From positions 1 to 37,596 of the forward strand of contig CALXML010000009.1 of the NCBI GenBank assembly GCA_944389465.1: a stretch of 37,596 bases of DNA, given 5' to 3'. The translations under genes were made by a program, and so were the position numbers. Below the pieces are notes generated by a model. That model saw only the letters and a list, made by a program, of their open reading frames with translations, ran no database searches and was not told where the DNA came from. Shown here one piece after another: positions 9,033 through 36,658 of this stretch. Position 1 is the stretch's first letter; each line of letters opens with the position of its first letter. This stretch comes from an uncultured Alphaproteobacteria bacterium. GTDB lineage: Bacteria; Pseudomonadota; Alphaproteobacteria; Rs-D84.

Positions 9033-9218
9033 TTGACTTGTGGGGCAAAATCCCATAAAATATATGGCGTTACAGATATTTTTTTATGCCGAATGCAAAC
9101 GTCCGTTTAAACGACGTTTTTTTTGTTTTTTAAAAATCCCTGTTTCCTGCGTGTTTTTTCTTTGCTGTTATGCCGAATTTAAACGGACGTTTTTAAACGA
9201 CATAATCGGGGGGATATA
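9033..9218 (+). promoter_or_regulatory. Promoter plus candidate attenuator leader RNA, divergent copy (D)
   Basis: The promoter is TTGACT (9033-9038), 17 bases, TAAAAT (9056-9061). The leader then holds ATGCCGAA, segment 1 AAACGTCCGTTT (9097-9108), a terminator formed by AAACGTC with GACGTTT (9113-9119) followed by a long T tract, the block AAAAATCCC (9132-9140), ATGCCGAA again, and segment 3 AAACGGACGTTT (9181-9192). Segment 3 is the exact 12-base reverse complement of segment 1, so pairing 1-3 would prevent the terminator. The order of parts matches the leaders at 15941, 19973 and 35541, but the stem sequence differs. The start codon of the secreted protein lies 26 bases after segment 3. 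Confidence 0.65.
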
Positions 9219-9863
9219 ATGAAATATATGAACAAGTTTTTTTGTATGATTGCCGCGGCGATTACATCATATGCAGTAAATATGATATATAATATAACAA
9301 ATTCATTTGCTGCAGCGTATGTATGTGGTCAAACCACCATTACAACCCATACTTATAATATTTGCCAATCTGGAAATTGGTGGCGTCCAGAAATGATGGG
9401 TGCCCGCTGTGGCACAAATGGAGATGAATGGCGTTCCCACTGCCCATCGGTTGCATATGATTCAGTATATAACAGTTGGGTAAGTGGTTGGACATGTTCC
9501 GGCACAATTTATCCTTCTAGCGAATCCGGACTATGCGATTGCTGGAATACATATGGGTCGCAAATTTATGCATCTACATCCGTCGGTGTTTGTGGCACTA
9601 TGCATATTTGCAGTGGAACAGTGCGTTCGGCTGAATGTAACACAGGGCCGTATAATGCCGGATATAGTGTTGGTGGAAATATCAGAACGTGCGCCTGTTG
9701 TCCCACTGGTCCGGTTGATGGCGTCCCGACCCAAAATTCTTTGACGGTATTGTCCATGTATAATGCAACATCATCAGCGGGGTGCTATATCGTTGGTGAT
9801 TTTTCGGATGACACCGGTTTATTTGAATACACGGATGATAACAGATGTTATTACGCTTCATAA
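9219..9863 (+). CDS. Secreted cysteine-rich protein, unknown function
   Basis: Not recognised as a named family. The 214 residues begin with a signal-like hydrophobic stretch (FFCMIAAAITSYAVNMIY...FAAAYVC). The mature part is rich in Cys, Trp, Gly and Ser and includes CDCWNTYGSQ and RTCACCPTGPVDG. The end, GLFEYTDDNRCYYAS, resembles the ends of the 34527-35537 protein (GIYMYTSDCYYDN) and, more loosely, the 13819-14100 protein (GTYVFTMPC). Disulfide-bonded export is likely. The ATG follows CGGGGGGATAT and the candidate attenuator leader. It overlaps the downstream glycosyltransferase-like gene by 19 bases. Confidence 0.8.
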   Translation: MKYMNKFFCMIAAAITSYAVNMIYNITNSFAAAYVCGQTTITTHTYNICQSGNWWRPEMMGARCGTNGDEWRSHCPSVAYDSVYNSWVSGWTCSGTIYPSSESGLCDCWNTYGSQIYASTSVGVCGTMHICSGTVRSAECNTGPYNAGYSVGGNIRTCACCPTGPVDGVPTQNSLTVLSMYNATSSAGCYIVGDFSDDTGLFEYTDDNRCYYAS

Positions 9864-12570: not shown

Positions 12571-12901
12571 AAATATATCTGTGTCCGGTTGTGTTGTCAT
12601 AATATGCATGTGCCGTTGTTGCCGTTGCGACAATATCAGTTATATTGCCGATGTGATTTTTTGTGCAAATTTTGTGCCGAATAAAAATATATGAACACGG
12701 CAGAAAATCAATAAAAATTGCAAAAAAATAAAGCCGAAAATAAAGGGCCGTTTGTTTTCTGTATTTGCTTGGTATCATTTTAGCCAATTTTTCGCCGTTC
12801 AGTCAACTATAAAATATGCTGAATCCAAACGGCCATTTGCATTCAGCCAAACCCAGCGAATCGCATCAATGCATAATGGCCCAGCAACAGGGGAAACAAT
12901 A
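12571..12901 (+). promoter_or_regulatory. 331-base gap: possible degenerate leader (E) before the secreted-protein operon
   Basis: No convincing gene is seen. It contains GCCGAAAATAAA (12733-12744), identical to the motif in the leaders at 15941 and 35541, followed by GGCCGTTTG (12746-12754). Downstream lies GCTGAATC and then CAAACGGCC (12826-12834), the exact 9-base complement of the first segment. The distal part can also form its own hairpin (GCTGAAT / ATTCAGC, 12818-12847). No clear intermediate terminator or AAAAATCCC block is visible, so membership in the leader family is tentative. Confidence 0.35.
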
Positions 12902-13345
12902 ATGCATTTTTCAAAAGGCGTATTTTTATTTGGGGCGATAATCGCACTTTGCCCACCGGCATATGCCACAACTGTAAAATGTGTTCGTCTGGATATAAAT
13001 AACACCGGAAAAATTTGTTATGATGGCAGTTATTCTGGTGTGAATTGGTCAATTCATTGTTCATCCAGCAGTACCGGTGTCACGATGAGTGGCGTTGCCA
13101 TGTGTTCGTCCAGCAACATAGGTACGGCTGGCAGAAGTCTGGAATTTATTCCAACACATTCATATTATAATGCTTTAATAAATTGTTTCTGCAGAATGCT
13201 TACCCCCGCTGTTTCGTTGTGGGTGGCATCTGGGACCAGGGCGTCTTCTAACGCTGATTGTGTTAGTAATTGCGCAAGCTATTGCATAGAAGCGATTAAG
13301 AATAAACCAGAAGTTCGCAATGCATTATTTACCAATATATTATAA
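12902..13345 (+). CDS. Secreted cysteine-rich small protein, paralogue 1
   Basis: 147 residues of unknown function. The signal peptide MHFSKGVFLFGAIIALCPPAYA is clear, and AGGGGAA precedes the ATG at 12902. The mature domain pattern (VNWSIHCSS, GVTMSGVAMCSSSN, NCFCRMLTPAVSLWV, CVSNCASYC, then an N/R-rich end) is shared with the next gene and with the truncated copy at 24834-25169. Paired cysteines suggest a disulfide-stabilised periplasmic or extracellular protein. It is the first of four closely spaced genes for secreted proteins. Confidence 0.8.
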   Translation: MHFSKGVFLFGAIIALCPPAYATTVKCVRLDINNTGKICYDGSYSGVNWSIHCSSSSTGVTMSGVAMCSSSNIGTAGRSLEFIPTHSYYNALINCFCRMLTPAVSLWVASGTRASSNADCVSNCASYCIEAIKNKPEVRNALFTNIL

Positions 13346-13355
13346 GGAGAAAGCA

Positions 13356-13808
13356 ATGAAAAAATTTTCTATTTTATTTGCTTTGCTATTACCAAATGCG
13401 ACCTTGGCCAGTTTTAATCAATGTGTGAATCTTGGTTTTAACAGTTGCACACTACAGGCAATAGATTGTGGTTCAACAGATTGTGGACATGATTGGACAA
13501 CAACATGTACAACATCCAATGGCAACAGTGTCGCTGTTCGGGGCATAGCAACATGTGCAGCAAACCAAGTTACGGCAACGGCTCAAACCGCCGGCTCTTT
13601 AAATATCAATTCAAACCTTGATGATAATAAATATTGTTGGTGCAAAATGGTTTATCCGGCGGTTTCCACAAATTGGGTTAGTGTTTATTTAGCGTCTACG
13701 AATGTCACTTATATGTCGTGTACGCTGACTTGTGCGGAGTTGTGTGCCGGAAATTTTCAGCCAAGCGGCACTATGTTTTTACAAAGGTTAACAAACTCTA
13801 TTCAATAG
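13356..13808 (+). CDS. Secreted cysteine-rich small protein, paralogue 2
   Basis: 150 residues. Signal peptide MKKFSILFALLLPNATLA, then a domain homologous to the preceding gene: HDWTTTCTTSNGNSVAVRGIATCAAN, YCWCKMVYPAVSTNWVSVYL, CTLTCAELC. The ATG at 13356 follows a strong AAGGAG (13344-13349) that overlaps the previous stop codon, so the pair is co-transcribed. The function is unknown; the tandem arrangement suggests duplication and divergence of a surface or secreted protein. Confidence 0.85.
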   Translation: MKKFSILFALLLPNATLASFNQCVNLGFNSCTLQAIDCGSTDCGHDWTTTCTTSNGNSVAVRGIATCAANQVTATAQTAGSLNINSNLDDNKYCWCKMVYPAVSTNWVSVYLASTNVTYMSCTLTCAELCAGNFQPSGTMFLQRLTNSIQ

Positions 13809-13818
13809 GACCCCAAAT

Positions 13819-14100
13819 ATGAAATATGTATTTTTATTTATTTTTCTGTTCGTGCCAACTGTTACATTTGCCGCCACAATGCCGTCGGCAGTATGCCCAA
13901 CAGGTTACACCACACTGGTCAAAGAACAAATAATACTGGCAGAAGACACGTGCCCTGTTGGATATTCTGCTGTTGATACTGTTGAAAATTGTCAGGGTTC
14001 AAACGCAGACATATGTGCATTGTTTGTGCCTGCAAATACCGAATACAATAGCCGTTCCGGTACATATGTATTTACCATGCCATGTACTGATATTGAATAA
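13819..14100 (+). CDS. Small secreted protein, unknown function
   Basis: 93 residues with signal peptide MKYVFLFIFLFVPTVTFA. The mature part has two similar units, CPTGYTTLVKEQ and CPVGYSAVDTVENC, and ends GTYVFTMPCTDIE, which recalls the ends of the cysteine-rich proteins at 9219-9863 and 34527-35537. AGGA lies upstream of the ATG, ten bases after the previous stop codon. Third gene of the four-gene operon. No known family recognised. Confidence 0.78.
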   Translation: MKYVFLFIFLFVPTVTFAATMPSAVCPTGYTTLVKEQIILAEDTCPVGYSAVDTVENCQGSNADICALFVPANTEYNSRSGTYVFTMPCTDIE

Positions 14101-14138
14101 ATGCACATCATTTGGATTAAGCCAAAGTAATAACAAAA

Positions 14139-14969
14139 ATGAAAAAATTTTTTTTAATACTTGCTTTGATAATGATGCATCCGACATATGTGCATGCAAT
14201 GTTTGGGATACGATTTGGATATAATAACCAGTGTATCATAGATTACTTTGCATCGCGTCAAGATTGGTATTTTTGTGGCAAAGCACTTTTTAAACATCCG
14301 GTTTGCTCTGGCAGAAGAGCATTGAATGGCTATAACAGACAGTGGTTGCTGCATGGCGAGGGCTTTTCTTCTGTATATGATAACAGCCGTCATTTTTGGT
14401 GTTGCCACGGCAAAGATGATTATATGGGCAGATTTGTTGAAACCCATTTACCATTCCAAACCAGTGAAGTAGTCACTGTTGATTTGGGTAATGGCCGTAC
14501 TTGTACATATGAAAGAATAACAAACGTATGTGGTGACGTTATTGATGTGCCGTGTACAACACCAACAAATTGCCCAGATGGCACATTGTTTCGTAATAAT
14601 GATTGCGTTGCGCCCTGCAGTGGTACTACTGCATTTGAAAGTGTGACATCAAATAAATGCATTGAATGTGAAACGACCGCATATCAGGGTATAAGCACCG
14701 ACCGACAGTGTGTTACGTGTGATTCTGAAACGGAATTTTTTGATAAATTTGCAAAAAAATGTGTGTTAAAAACATCAATGAGTATGATTACGGCCACTGC
14801 AATGCAAAAATGCCATGGCTGTCCAAATAATCAAATGTTAAAAGAATGCGGCTTGCTGTTCAGTTTATCTGAATCAGAATGTCGTGCGGCCGATAATTAT
14901 GAACAAATTATCACTGATTGTTATATAACTGATGACACCCCATCATCAAATACAGATGCAACAGAATAA
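14139..14969 (+). CDS. Secreted cysteine-rich protein, paralogue of 15116-15910
   Basis: 276 residues. Signal peptide MKKFFLILALIMMHPTYVHA. Domains visible: an N-terminal part with DWYFCG and RHFWCCHGKDD, a conserved middle SEVVTVDLGNGRTCTYERIT, then growth-factor-receptor-like cysteine repeats NCPDGTLFRNNDCVAPC, NKCIECETTAYQGIS and CVTCDSETEFFDK, and a C-terminal helical part MQKCHGCPNN...NYEQIITDCYIT. It closely matches the facing minus-strand gene 146 bases away. Probably a disulfide-rich surface protein; no function assigned. Last gene of the 12902-14969 cluster. Confidence 0.85.
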   Translation: MKKFFLILALIMMHPTYVHAMFGIRFGYNNQCIIDYFASRQDWYFCGKALFKHPVCSGRRALNGYNRQWLLHGEGFSSVYDNSRHFWCCHGKDDYMGRFVETHLPFQTSEVVTVDLGNGRTCTYERITNVCGDVIDVPCTTPTNCPDGTLFRNNDCVAPCSGTTAFESVTSNKCIECETTAYQGISTDRQCVTCDSETEFFDKFAKKCVLKTSMSMITATAMQKCHGCPNNQMLKECGLLFSLSESECRAADNYEQIITDCYITDDTPSSNTDATE

Positions 14970-15115: not shown

Positions 15116-15910
15116 TTAATTATCCGTGCCGGAATCGCTGTCTTCAGTGATATAGCAATCTTTGATAATTTGTGTATAATTGCTGGCTGCGCGGCGTTCA
15201 CTGGCGGATTGGCTAAACAACGAACTGCATTCCGCAAACAATTCATTATTTGGACAACCATAACATTTTTGCATTGCGCTGGCACTGATGCGTTTCAGCG
15301 ATGTTTTTGATATGCACTTTTTATTCGTTTTATCAAAAAATTGGGTGGCGGGGTCGCATTTAACGCATAATTTGTCATTGTTTATACCCTGATATGCGGT
15401 CGTTTCGCATTCAATGCATTTGTTTGATGCCGTGCTTTCAAACGCAGTGTTGCCATCACATGGGGTGACACACGTGTCGTTGCGTAAAATTGTTCCGTCC
15501 GTACAGTTGGTCGGGGCGGTACACGGTTCGTCAATTACGTCACCGCATACATTAGTAATTTTTTCATATGTACATGTACCATTCCCTAAATCAACAGTTA
15601 CAATTTCGCTTGATGAAAAGGGTGCTGTGCTTTCAACGTATTTGCCGGCGGTATCGGTTGTACCATCACAGCACCAAAAATGTCGTCCTTCGGATTCAAA
15701 TTCGTCACCATGATATTGATATGTACGGTCATGATATTTTCTTAATTTTTTACCGGCGCAATCACTGCCCTGTGAACCACAATACCAAAAATGATTTATT
15801 CCGCCGACATTTACAAAACATTTGTTGTTGTCACCGGCACGTAATTTTACACGTGCAAACGCAGGCATTGAAATTGCCAATATTCCCAAAAATACAAAAA
15901 TTTTTTTCAT
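15116..15910 (-). CDS. Secreted cysteine-rich protein, inverted paralogue of 14139-14969
   Basis: 264 residues from ATG 15910, which has the strong ribosome site AGGGGGAC upstream; a longer reading starting 30 bases earlier lacks one. Signal peptide MKKIFVFLGILAISMPAFA. It shares the whole domain order with 14139-14969: HFWCCDGTTDTAGKYVE, SEIVTVDLGNGTCTYEKITN, NCTDGTILRNDTCVTPC, SNKCIECETTAYQGI, FFDKTNKKC, MQKCYGCPNN and NYTQIIKDCYIT. Candidate leader A (15941-16118) lies directly upstream. The two paralogues converge, which suggests an inverted duplication. Confidence 0.87.
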   Translation of the reverse strand: MKKIFVFLGILAISMPAFARVKLRAGDNNKCFVNVGGINHFWYCGSQGSDCAGKKLRKYHDRTYQYHGDEFESEGRHFWCCDGTTDTAGKYVESTAPFSSSEIVTVDLGNGTCTYEKITNVCGDVIDEPCTAPTNCTDGTILRNDTCVTPCDGNTAFESTASNKCIECETTAYQGINNDKLCVKCDPATQFFDKTNKKCISKTSLKRISASAMQKCYGCPNNELFAECSSLFSQSASERRAASNYTQIIKDCYITEDSDSGTDN

Positions 15911-15940
15911 TTTTGTCCCCCTGTAACAGGACTGTCGCAA

Positions 15941-16118
15941 CCCACCGTTTTATTTCAGCAAAATGGGGAAACAAAAAAATGCATAAATCTGGGATTTTTT
16001 CAAAAACAAAAACACCGATTCTTATCGGTGGTTTATTTTCGGCATTTGTTTACACATATTTTACCCCAAATTCCGTCCCCACGTCAATTATAAAAAATAT
16101 AATACGGGATTTGCAGCA
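15941..16118 (-). promoter_or_regulatory. Promoter plus candidate attenuator leader RNA, copy A
   Basis: Read on the minus strand: TTGACG (16082-16087), 18 bases, TAAAAT (16058-16063), ATGCCGAAAATAAACC, terminator CACCGAT-loop-ATCGGTG (16013-16030) followed by TTTTTGTTTTT, AAAAAATCCCAGATTT, a long T run, GCTGAAAT, and CGGTGG (15941-15946), which is complementary to CCACCG of the terminator's 5' arm. The upstream flank (TAATTGACG preceded by a TGCTGCAAATCC block) is shared with copy B but not copy C. The gene start codon lies 31 bases downstream. Confidence 0.65.
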
Positions 16119-19954: not shown

Positions 19955-19972
19955 TTGTTTATATTGCCGACG

Positions 19973-20153
19973 AAAACCACCGATTTATTTCGGCAAAATG
20001 GGGAAACAAAAAAATGCAGAAATCTGGGATTTTTTCAAAAATAAAAACACCGATTTTTATCGGTGGTTTGTTTTCGGCATTTGTTTAACCTTATTTTACC
20101 CCAAATTCCATACCCACGTCAATTATAAAAAATATAATACAGGATTTGCAGCA
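19973..20153 (-). promoter_or_regulatory. Promoter plus candidate attenuator leader RNA, copy B
   Basis: Minus strand: TTGACG (20117-20122), 18 bases, TAAAAT (20093-20098), ATGCCGAAAACAAACC, terminator CACCGAT-loop-ATCGGTG (20048-20065) with TTTTTATTTTT, AAAAAATCCCAGATTT, GCCGAAATAAA, and segment ATCGGTGGTTT (19974-19984). That segment is exactly complementary over 11 bases to AAACCACCGAT at the terminator's 5' arm (20059-20069). This copy has the longest alternative pairing of the three close relatives. It leads into the 69-residue gene. Confidence 0.65.
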
Positions 20154-34503: not shown

Positions 34504-34528
34504 AACCGCCCACAACAGGCGGTTTTTT
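34504..34528. terminator. Bidirectional terminator
   Basis: AACCGCC-CACAACA-GGCGGTT with T6; it overlaps the stop codon of the minus-strand SusC-domain gene. Confidence 0.8.
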
Positions 34529-35537
34529 AATTATCATAATAACAATCGCTTGTATACATGTATATGCCACTTTCATCATTTACGGGCGTTGATGACGGAA
34601 TCCTGCAGTAATATATGGTGTTATTGTGTTGTCCATTATTGCTGGATGGAATAACCCCCGCTGTTTCCCCGTCGGACGGACACAGATTACACGTACTTTG
34701 TCCTGTGGACCAATCCATATAATACCCTGAATCACATATGCCAATTCCTGTGTCATCTGTCATACTGACAATTAATCCTGATTTATTATTGGCTGTAACA
34801 ATGATTTCCTGCCGCGCCATACCCAAGAACAAAAATACCAATTTATCACCAACTTCACACGATATTTGATACATACCATCCATATCACTTATAACGCCCG
34901 CGGCAATGCTGTTTGATGGTGTTGTCGGTTTCATTAAAACAACGCTTGCACCAATCAGGGGCAAACTATCAGATTCCGCAATTACAGTGCCGCAACAGCC
35001 AGATGTGCATGTTGCGTTACGTATACATCCTGTCTTTCCATCGGTTGTTGTACCTGTATATCCATCGGCACATCTGTATTGTGTTATTTGGCCTGTACAT
35101 ATTCCGTGTGAAGTGCTGGTATTTCCACTGCACGTCCCACCCGCCAGCCGTGATTCATATCCCGCTGTGCCGGTTGGTTCCCATTCTGTTGCGGCCGTTT
35201 CACAAGCGGTGCAGGGCAATTTTTCAGCACTGCTGCTGCATGGGTTACCATAACATCCAATACCAATGTCCCCAAAATCTTCACACAATTGAACATTTAT
35301 ATCGGCAAAATTTTCTACGCAGTGCTCGTACGTTACATATCCGATATATGAAATCTGTAATGTGTCACCTGTTTTACAACCATTAAGCATAAAATTACCA
35401 TCTATATCAGTTATTGTGCCATTTGTTGTGCCTTTGACCATCACAGATGCACCTATTACACTTTCGCCCATACTGTCTGTAACAGTTCCTTTGCATACGT
35501 TGCTTTGTGCATATGCATTTATTGTGCTCAAAAACAT
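34527..35537 (-). CDS. Secreted protein with two CarboxypepD_reg-like (SusC N-terminal type) domains and cysteine-rich linkers
   Basis: 336 residues if started at ATG 35537 (MFLSTINAYAQ). Domain 1 (about 17-90) contains GASVMVKGTTNGTITDIDGN and DTLQISYIGYVTYE, the hallmark of the domain at the N-terminus of Bacteroidetes SusC receptors. A second copy (about 185-255) reads GTVIAESDSLPLIGASVVLM...ISDMDGMYQI. Between and after them are cysteine-rich stretches (TACETAATEWEP, GYTGTTTDGKTGC), and the end GIYMYTSDCYYDN matches the 9219-9863 protein. No TonB barrel follows. The signal peptide is too short from this start; a start at 35618 would use codons from leader copy C. Confidence 0.75.
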   Translation of the reverse strand: MFLSTINAYAQSNVCKGTVTDSMGESVIGASVMVKGTTNGTITDIDGNFMLNGCKTGDTLQISYIGYVTYEHCVENFADINVQLCEDFGDIGIGCYGNPCSSSAEKLPCTACETAATEWEPTGTAGYESRLAGGTCSGNTSTSHGICTGQITQYRCADGYTGTTTDGKTGCIRNATCTSGCCGTVIAESDSLPLIGASVVLMKPTTPSNSIAAGVISDMDGMYQISCEVGDKLVFLFLGMARQEIIVTANNKSGLIVSMTDDTGIGICDSGYYMDWSTGQSTCNLCPSDGETAGVIPSSNNGQHNNTIYYCRIPSSTPVNDESGIYMYTSDCYYDN

Positions 35538-35540
35538 AAT

Positions 35541-35690
35541 AAAACCACCGTTTGTTTTCGGCGAAATGGGGGAATAAAAAAATGCAGAAATCTGGGATTT
35601 TTTCAAAAATAAAAACACCGATTCTTATCGGTGGTTTATTTTCGGCATTTGTTTATACGTATTTTACCCCAAATTCCGCCCCCACGTCAA
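35541..35690 (-). promoter_or_regulatory. Promoter plus candidate attenuator leader RNA, copy C
   Basis: Minus strand: TTGACG (35685-35690), 18 bases, TAAAAT (35661-35666), ATGCCGAAAATAAACC, terminator CACCGAT-loop-ATCGGTG (35616-35633) with TTTTTATTTTT, AAAAAATCCCAGATTT, GCCGAAAAC, and CGGTGGTTTT (35541-35550), complementary over nine bases to AAACCACCG of the 5' arm. The element ends three bases before the start codon at 35537 and reads into the SusC-domain gene. A CGTCAA / TTGACG inverted repeat (35685-35704) overlaps the -35 element. Confidence 0.65.
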
Positions 35691-35722: not shown

Positions 35723-36658
35723 CTATTTATTTTCTGTTGATGTGTTGTTTAAATCAGCCATGGGATGGGCGTGTTCGTAAATGTTCATTATTTCTGACAT
35801 ATTTACGCGCGTATATAATTGTGTTGTGGACAATGACGCGTGCCCCAATAATTCCTGCAAGGTTCTTAAATCCGCGCCGCCGGCCAATAATGCTGTTGCA
35901 AAAGTATGGCGCAGTGCATGCGGGGTTACGTAATCGGGCAACTGTAAATAATGGCGCAATTTTTCAACAACCTTTTCTGCCATACGTGGCGACATGGGCA
36001 ATCCCCGCACACTGCGAAACAATGCGTCATTTGCTGCGGCACCAAACGGGCGTAATTCAGTATATTTTTCAATTGCGTCCAGTACCGCCGGCAATATTGG
36101 CACAATGCGTTCCTTGGACCCTTTGCCCAAAATTCGCAGGGCATCTGGCCGGCCACGAACATCAATATTTTTTAGCGATAACGCTTCGGATATACGCAGA
36201 CCACATCCAAATATCAACAGCACCAACGCCCAATCGCGTGCCGCAATCCATGGTTCAGCATTGTCAATTTCACGAATTGCGTCGTGCATATGTTCAACAT
36301 CCGTGACTTCAATGGCCTTGGATAATTTACGTGGTATTTTTGGTGATGAAATCAGCCCGATTGCATTATTTTGGATATTGTGTTTTTTTGATAAAAATTT
36401 ATAAAATCCGCGCAGTGATGACAGCGCACGTGCAGTTGATTTATGCGCCAGATTACGGTGTGCCCTGTCTGCCAACCATGCACGGAAACAGATTGTATCA
36501 GCCCGCACCATATCAGACAACGAAACATCCGCACCATTATAGTTTTCATAAAACTTTATAAAATCGCGGATGTCCGTTTCGTACGCAGTCGCCGTATGCA
36601 CAGAATAATTTTTAGTCTGTGTCAAATAATCCAAAAATTCGGCGACATAGTCATTCAT
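35723..36658 (-). CDS. xerC: Tyrosine recombinase XerC/XerD
   Basis: Resolves chromosome dimers at dif with its partner and FtsK. 311 residues: N-terminal SAM-like core-binding domain (FLDYLTQTKNYSVHTATAYETDIRDFIKFY), then the catalytic domain with Arg in GCGLRISEALSL, Lys in GKGSKERIVPI, HALRHTFATALL, GHASLSTTQLYT with the nucleophilic Tyr, all five catalytic positions present. I favour XerC over XerD from the SIMPL-neighbouring context common in alphaproteobacteria, but the paralogues are hard to separate by eye. Starts four bases after the SIMPL gene. Confidence 0.9.
   Translation of the reverse strand: MNDYVAEFLDYLTQTKNYSVHTATAYETDIRDFIKFYENYNGADVSLSDMVRADTICFRAWLADRAHRNLAHKSTARALSSLRGFYKFLSKKHNIQNNAIGLISSPKIPRKLSKAIEVTDVEHMHDAIREIDNAEPWIAARDWALVLLIFGCGLRISEALSLKNIDVRGRPDALRILGKGSKERIVPILPAVLDAIEKYTELRPFGAAANDALFRSVRGLPMSPRMAEKVVEKLRHYLQLPDYVTPHALRHTFATALLAGGADLRTLQELLGHASLSTTQLYTRVNMSEIMNIYEHAHPMADLNNTSTENK

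Follow-up and report, generated by a model that had tools for sequence, protein, structure and literature searches.

The window, that is, the whole stretch of DNA that was analysed (37,596 nt), contains five inverton elements. Copies A, B and C are located on the minus strand and a divergent copy, D, is located on the plus strand, essentially as the initial annotation had described. All members of the four-copy family that it named are present, but a fifth element at 12732-12848 was overlooked. Copies A and B are 92% identical across 183 nt, and A and C are 79% identical across 183 nt without gaps. The promoter motif TTGAC[GT]-N17/18-TAAAAT is found where it had been reported, at 16087-16058 (A), 20122-20093 (B) and 35690-35661 (C) on the minus strand and at 9033-9061 (D) on the plus strand, and in these copies the promoter is fixed.

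In copy A the promoter (TTGACG-18-TAAAAT) lies outside the invertible segment. On the same strand are a promoter-side recombination site (16013-16044, core C[AC]C), the hairpin and U tract of a putative OFF-state terminator (16007-16030) and a gene-side recombination site (15929-15960, core GGTG). Between the two sites the plus strand carries a Shine-Dalgarno sequence, GGGGAA, and an ATG at 15979 (together 15965-15989), and in the OFF orientation these and the gene lie on opposite strands. The gene (15116-15940, minus strand) encodes a Cys-rich protein predicted to be secreted. Its open frame reaches back to the site, and it has an additional Shine-Dalgarno sequence and ATG of its own near 15910. 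Copy B has its promoter-side site at 20048-20079, its hairpin at 20042-20065 and its gene-side site at 19964-19995, all on the minus strand, and an inverted Shine-Dalgarno sequence and ATG (20014) at 20000-20024 on the plus strand. The corresponding features of copy C are at 35616-35647, 35610-35633 and 35532-35563 on the minus strand, with the inverted GGGGGAA and ATG (35582) at 35568-35592 on the plus strand. The outer half of the gene-side site of C codes for signal peptide, and the gene behind it (34527-35562, minus strand), which encodes a putatively secreted CarboxypepD_reg-like protein, has no usable start in the OFF orientation.

Copy D is organized differently. Its sites, at 9087-9118 (core G[TC]C) and 9171-9202 (core GGAC, matched to the other site), and its OFF-state hairpin and U tract (9097-9124), which folds weakly, are on the plus strand, as is its gene (9219-9863), which encodes a secreted Cys-rich protein and has its own Shine-Dalgarno sequence and ATG. 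D would thus be a terminator-only switch. The fifth element has sites at 12732-12763 (core G[GC]C) and 12817-12848 (core GGCC) on the plus strand and an internal promoter, TTGACT-18-TAAAAT, at 12777-12806 on the minus strand, which points away from the genes in the OFF orientation. Since the GGCC core is palindromic, the orientation of these sites may be ambiguous. The element is followed at 12869-14969 on the plus strand by four ORFs in tandem, most of which have signal peptides. The genes at 14139-14969 and 15116-15940 are convergent paralogues that encode secreted proteins, one behind the promoter-type element at 12732 and the other behind copy A, and they form 441-nt arms that are 71% complementary. 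Three of the four genes behind the copies had been described as encoding secreted Cys-rich proteins. Most of the genes appear to encode secreted proteins, with signal peptides called by eye, but the in-frame ORF downstream of B (94 aa after inversion) has no obvious signal peptide. The CarboxypepD_reg-like domains of protein C (Pfam 7.9e-26) are the sole known domain among the downstream proteins tested; Pfam returned no domain in the others, including the proteins of the ON-oriented loci L086, L087, L111 and L125.

When the copies were read side by side, a start codon proved to be missing from several of the downstream genes. The stretch just before the gene, segment 3 of the initial annotation, can be read in frame as ATC GGT GGT TTA (I-G-G-L), and this continues directly into the hydrophobic core of a signal peptide. 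On the opposite strand of the element, GGGGGAA-N5/6-ATG is followed by MQKSGIFSKIKTPILIGGLFSA, passing through ATCGGTGGTTTA. Segment 1, the 5' arm of the hairpin, and segment 3 are therefore inverted repeats with common codons, and flipping the DNA between them would join the start to the gene. The cassette that would be moved consists of a Shine-Dalgarno sequence, an ATG and a signal-peptide N-region, MQKSGIFSKIKTPILIGG, about 18 codons in length. The conserved block that had been noted between the segments, AAAAATCCC, is present and represents coding sequence (MQKSGIF) in reverse complement. Variability within the cassette is highest at codon position 3 (0.31 vs 0.22 and 0.21).

Inversion was carried out in silico on the start-type loci of the organism's own genome and of related genomes. 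Inverted copy C reads MQKSGIFSKIKTPILIGGFIMFLSTINAYA^QSNVCK... and inverted L007 reads MQKSGIFSKIKTPILIGGLILATTLSFNARA^DNITL.... An ORF of at least 90 aa was obtained at 50 of 58 loci, whereas shifting the junction by one or two bases left such an ORF at only 1 and 4 loci, respectively. The exceptions are L006, L008, L011 and L121, in which the gene has its own start, L109, which is truncated at a contig end, L091, which is promoter-type, L116, which is a mis-pairing, and L094. Of 45 start-type copies, 42 have an SD-like match ahead of the start in the ON form. In the OFF form an upstream in-frame start with an SD-like match was found in 3 of the 45, and 13 of the 45 have a possible start of their own further inside the gene. 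That the start-less frames are intact argues for recent or frequent ON states.

The recombination sites are palindromes of about 32 bp, TGCCGAAnnTAAAC-N[NN]N-GTTTAnnTTCGGCA, and the full palindrome is visible in ON copies. Each element has two sites, inverted relative to each other, with cores 83-86 bp apart in the pairs of the own genome, except for L017 (96 bp). The central dinucleotide of the core varies across loci (AC, TC, GC, TT, AA, GA and GT) and is identical between the paired sites in all 24 own pairs, while the outer core bases differ between paired sites in 7 of the 24. In related genomes the central dinucleotide is matched in 50 of 57 pairs, and four of the seven unmatched pairs look like mis-pairings. 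The overlap at which strands are exchanged is 2 bp for serine recombinases and 6-8 bp for tyrosine recombinases, so a constraint on two bases only fits a serine recombinase. In L118 and L122 of genome G029 the core of one site has changed from CACC to CATC, turning GG into DG, and these two loci may be locked, by prediction in the OFF state. L004 (G000:C7:10461-10611) may have a third site, 84 bp upstream of its pair; the core of this site matches, and alternative inversions could perhaps result.

The comparison of orthologues provides a view of both states. ON orientation with the predicted fused ORF occurs in sister genomes at L086, L087, L109, L111 and L125, and L142 is an ON-oriented terminator-type copy in a sister genome. 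L014 of the own genome (OFF) and L087 and L125 (ON) are the same locus in opposite states. Their flanks are collinear in one direction with 72-78% identity over about 2 kb, whereas the inner 96-114 bp align in the opposite direction with 81-84% identity. The paralogues L111 (ON) and L120 (OFF) of genome G029 likewise differ by reversal of the inner segment alone. At the level of sequence comparison, both orientations occur within unchanged flanks, across species and also across paralogues, which is the pattern that in-place inversion leaves. The inverton of L014, L087, L125 and L115, found in several species, lies upstream of a small pilin-like protein (GLCDMIARFQDVFKLLRTLAFVGAGF). This likeness is putative, and the protein of L087, L125 and L014 has no Pfam match.

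Three kinds of switch use these sites. A, B, C and the majority of the others are start-type, with the Shine-Dalgarno sequence, the ATG and the N-region inside the segment. D, L006 and L008 are among the terminator-type copies, in which the gene has a start of its own. In the promoter type the promoter is within the segment (the fifth element, L017, L211 and L212). The hairpin of segments 1 and 2 with its U tract, described in the initial annotation, is real; in A-type copies it folds at -15.3 kcal/mol (z = -6.5), and in D it is weaker (z = -0.65). Of 68 copies, 53 show a terminator-like hairpin at the promoter-side junction in the OFF form, and 37 have a weaker one in the ON form when lenient rules are applied, which makes the terminator step less certain than the start-codon step.

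The family extends well beyond the window. BLAST detected 16 strong copies in the own genome (954 kb), and BLAST together with a pattern search gave at least 24 pairs of recombination sites, a lower bound, five of them in the window. In the own assembly, OFF is the orientation of all 16 copies detected by BLAST and also of D and the fifth element, which counts against active inversion. No comparable site pairs were found in 287 kb of control loci, and the family is far more frequent than chance would explain. Among the genomes of the same genus, 40 of 96 have an element match at E <= 0.001, and the family-level search gave element matches in 2 of 10 genera. An Rfam search of the window matched two tRNAs only; the elements match no family, in agreement with the earlier statement that no named RNA family has these motifs. 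Elements are located at contig ends in G018:C34, G029:C5, G068:C6, G051:C32 and G012:C3, as is expected if assembly breaks at repeated or invertible sequence. By the names of the nearest Mpi matches, the host is close to Candidatus Enterousia, a group of gut alphaproteobacteria with genomes of about 1 Mb or smaller (PMC12306168).

The own genome has two genes for serine recombinases of the Mpi ('master DNA invertase') family. One (C3:83685) scores 309 bits against NF009949, above the family cut-off of 272 bits. The other (L149, G000:C6:18001-18591) scores 256 bits, below it. A second group of such lower-scoring Mpi genes recurs across the genus, several of them at contig ends. An above-cutoff Mpi is present in all 17 genomes with strong elements, the own genome included, compared to 39 of 96 overall (Fisher p = 1.6e-8 across the 96 genus genomes, uncorrected for phylogeny). 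No element pairs were found in the flanks examined around the Mpi genes. Three tyrosine recombinases are also encoded in the own genome, one XerC-like, one XerD-like and one phage-integrase-like.

Taken as a whole, the sequences make it very likely that about 24 loci are phase-variation switches that operate by site-specific DNA inversion, most likely through an Mpi-family serine recombinase. The fixed promoter would transcribe into the invertible segment. In the OFF state the transcript would run into the terminator hairpin at the first site, where transcription presumably ends, and in start-type copies without a start of their own the secreted-protein frame would lack any usable start codon. 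The segment between the two sites would be reversed by recombination at the 2-bp core, presumably by one of the two Mpi enzymes and presumably reversible in a population. In the ON state the U tract of the terminator would be moved away, and the Shine-Dalgarno sequence, the ATG and about 18 codons would join the rest of the signal peptide in frame, giving a product that we infer to be secreted. In variants on the same sites the terminator would flip alone, as in D, or the promoter would flip, as in the fifth element and L017.

The initial annotation was correct that these are multi-copy, promoter-proximal regulatory elements with a terminator and that they form a regulon mostly of secreted proteins, but its proposal that they are RNA attenuators or riboswitches, in which a signal decides whether segment 1 pairs with segment 2 (terminator) or with segment 3 (antiterminator), did not hold up and is now considered very improbable. 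The fixed upstream promoters, the terminator-like hairpins at the promoter-side junction (53 of the 68 copies) and the complementarity of segments 1 and 3, which is genuine, all agree with attenuation. However, segments 1 and 3 correspond to the paired recombination sites of one invertible stretch, so that their matching follows from the identity of the site pair, and covariation cannot tell the two readings apart. What separates them is that many genes have no usable start in the OFF state, so antitermination alone would yield no protein, and that in orthologues the segment is flipped. In addition, the identity between sites is focused on the dinucleotide core, the same sites bound invertible promoters, a setting that offers no leader RNA for attenuation, and there is no Rfam match. 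An attenuator was therefore rejected as a sufficient explanation because of the missing starts, the flipped orthologues and the promoter variants. That the ORF on the opposite strand is a small gene in its own right, e.g. for a toxin or a membrane peptide, is extremely unlikely. In favour of it, its Shine-Dalgarno sequence, ATG and 18 codons are well conserved and its third codon positions are the most variable, but in OFF copies its 3' end varies without constraint and leads into unrelated sequence. An independent antisense peptide was rejected since in ON relatives the ORF runs on continuously into the secreted proteins.

Could the elements instead be mobile repeats, MITE or REP-like, that were inserted by chance upstream of genes for secreted proteins? 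Their many near-identical copies per genome, their terminal inverted repeats and the position of several at contig ends are in line with such an origin, which is nevertheless highly doubtful, because the elements keep a constant position between promoter and gene, the frame into the gene is preserved at 50 of 58 loci, a site duplication of the insertion type was not seen, and between orthologues the inner segment alone inverts. A mobile-element or phage origin was rejected, as phage records, and viral contigs for two patterns, gave no match. It is also improbable that the inversion is real but is carried out by a tyrosine recombinase similar to XerC or XerD. Copy C has a XerC-like gene next to it (35723-36658) and the genome has three tyrosine recombinases, but the constraint on the central dinucleotide alone fits the 2-bp overlap of a serine recombinase and not one of 6-8 bp, and an Mpi gene is present in every genome with strong elements. 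Inversion by an Mpi-family enzyme is the preferred reading.

The nearest known systems are the Mpi regulon, the cwpV terminator inverton, the Vsa inversions and the intragenic invertons cited in PMC11868660. In Bacteroides fragilis, Mpi controls 13 invertible promoter regions (PMC4747536, PMC5903667). The two systems are alike in having one master serine recombinase family and many scattered small invertons at genes for surface structures. They differ in that the present host is an alphaproteobacterium with a 0.95-Mb genome, in which the promoter is mostly fixed and the segment holds the start codon, the signal-peptide N-region and the terminator. For cwpV of Clostridioides difficile, the source describes a promoter outside the inverton, a proposed OFF terminator at the inverted-repeat junction, the recombinase RecV and an invertible segment without a promoter or ORF (PMC2784873). 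The outside promoter, the proposed OFF terminator, the mostly OFF state in the genome and the surface protein are shared; however, the segment described here holds a Shine-Dalgarno sequence, an ATG and coding sequence, the switch is repeated at many loci, and the recombinase there is RecV. In the Vsa system of Mycoplasma pulmonis, silent genes for surface proteins are connected by inversion to a ribosome binding site and 5' coding sequence (PMC2268961). The present elements resemble it in this respect, but Vsa has a single long expression site (promoter, ribosome binding site and 714 nt) for one gene family, whereas here each locus has its own cassette of about 85 bp and its own fixed promoter. 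In the intragenic invertons of Chanin et al. (2024), inversion within or at the end of a coding sequence reportedly alters the protein product. The protein product is altered by inversion here too, but it is the whole initiation region that inverts, in a homologous family with one type of site.

A survey from 2018 detected no invertons in its four alphaproteobacterial samples (PMC5903667). Our literature search, of partial coverage, found no invertons in alphaproteobacteria and no small cassette that supplies a start codon and a signal-peptide N-region at many loci. The start-codon cassette design is probably novel. We consider it likely that the elements represent a new switch design, a portable Mpi-inverted cassette of about 85 bp that gives or withdraws the Shine-Dalgarno sequence, the start and the signal-peptide N-region for many secreted proteins. 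The same bases would serve as signal-peptide codons or as terminator, depending on orientation, the recombination site would code for Gly-Gly-Leu-Phe-Ser-Ala, and the design would be used genome-wide in a gut alphaproteobacterium with a reduced genome.

Global invertase regulons are known chiefly from Bacteroidota. The design described here uncouples the switching of translation start from the promoter, and it is a compact and testable genetic part. Gene callers can be expected to miss such proteins or to misplace their starts, since a start codon is often absent from the assembled state. A genome of less than 1 Mb appears to spend two dozen switches largely on its secreted proteome, which in principle allows 2^24 states. 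Through ON/OFF switching of secreted proteins, related cells could present different surfaces. Members of the genus inhabit animal guts, where the switches may be relevant to encounters with phages, mucus and immunity.
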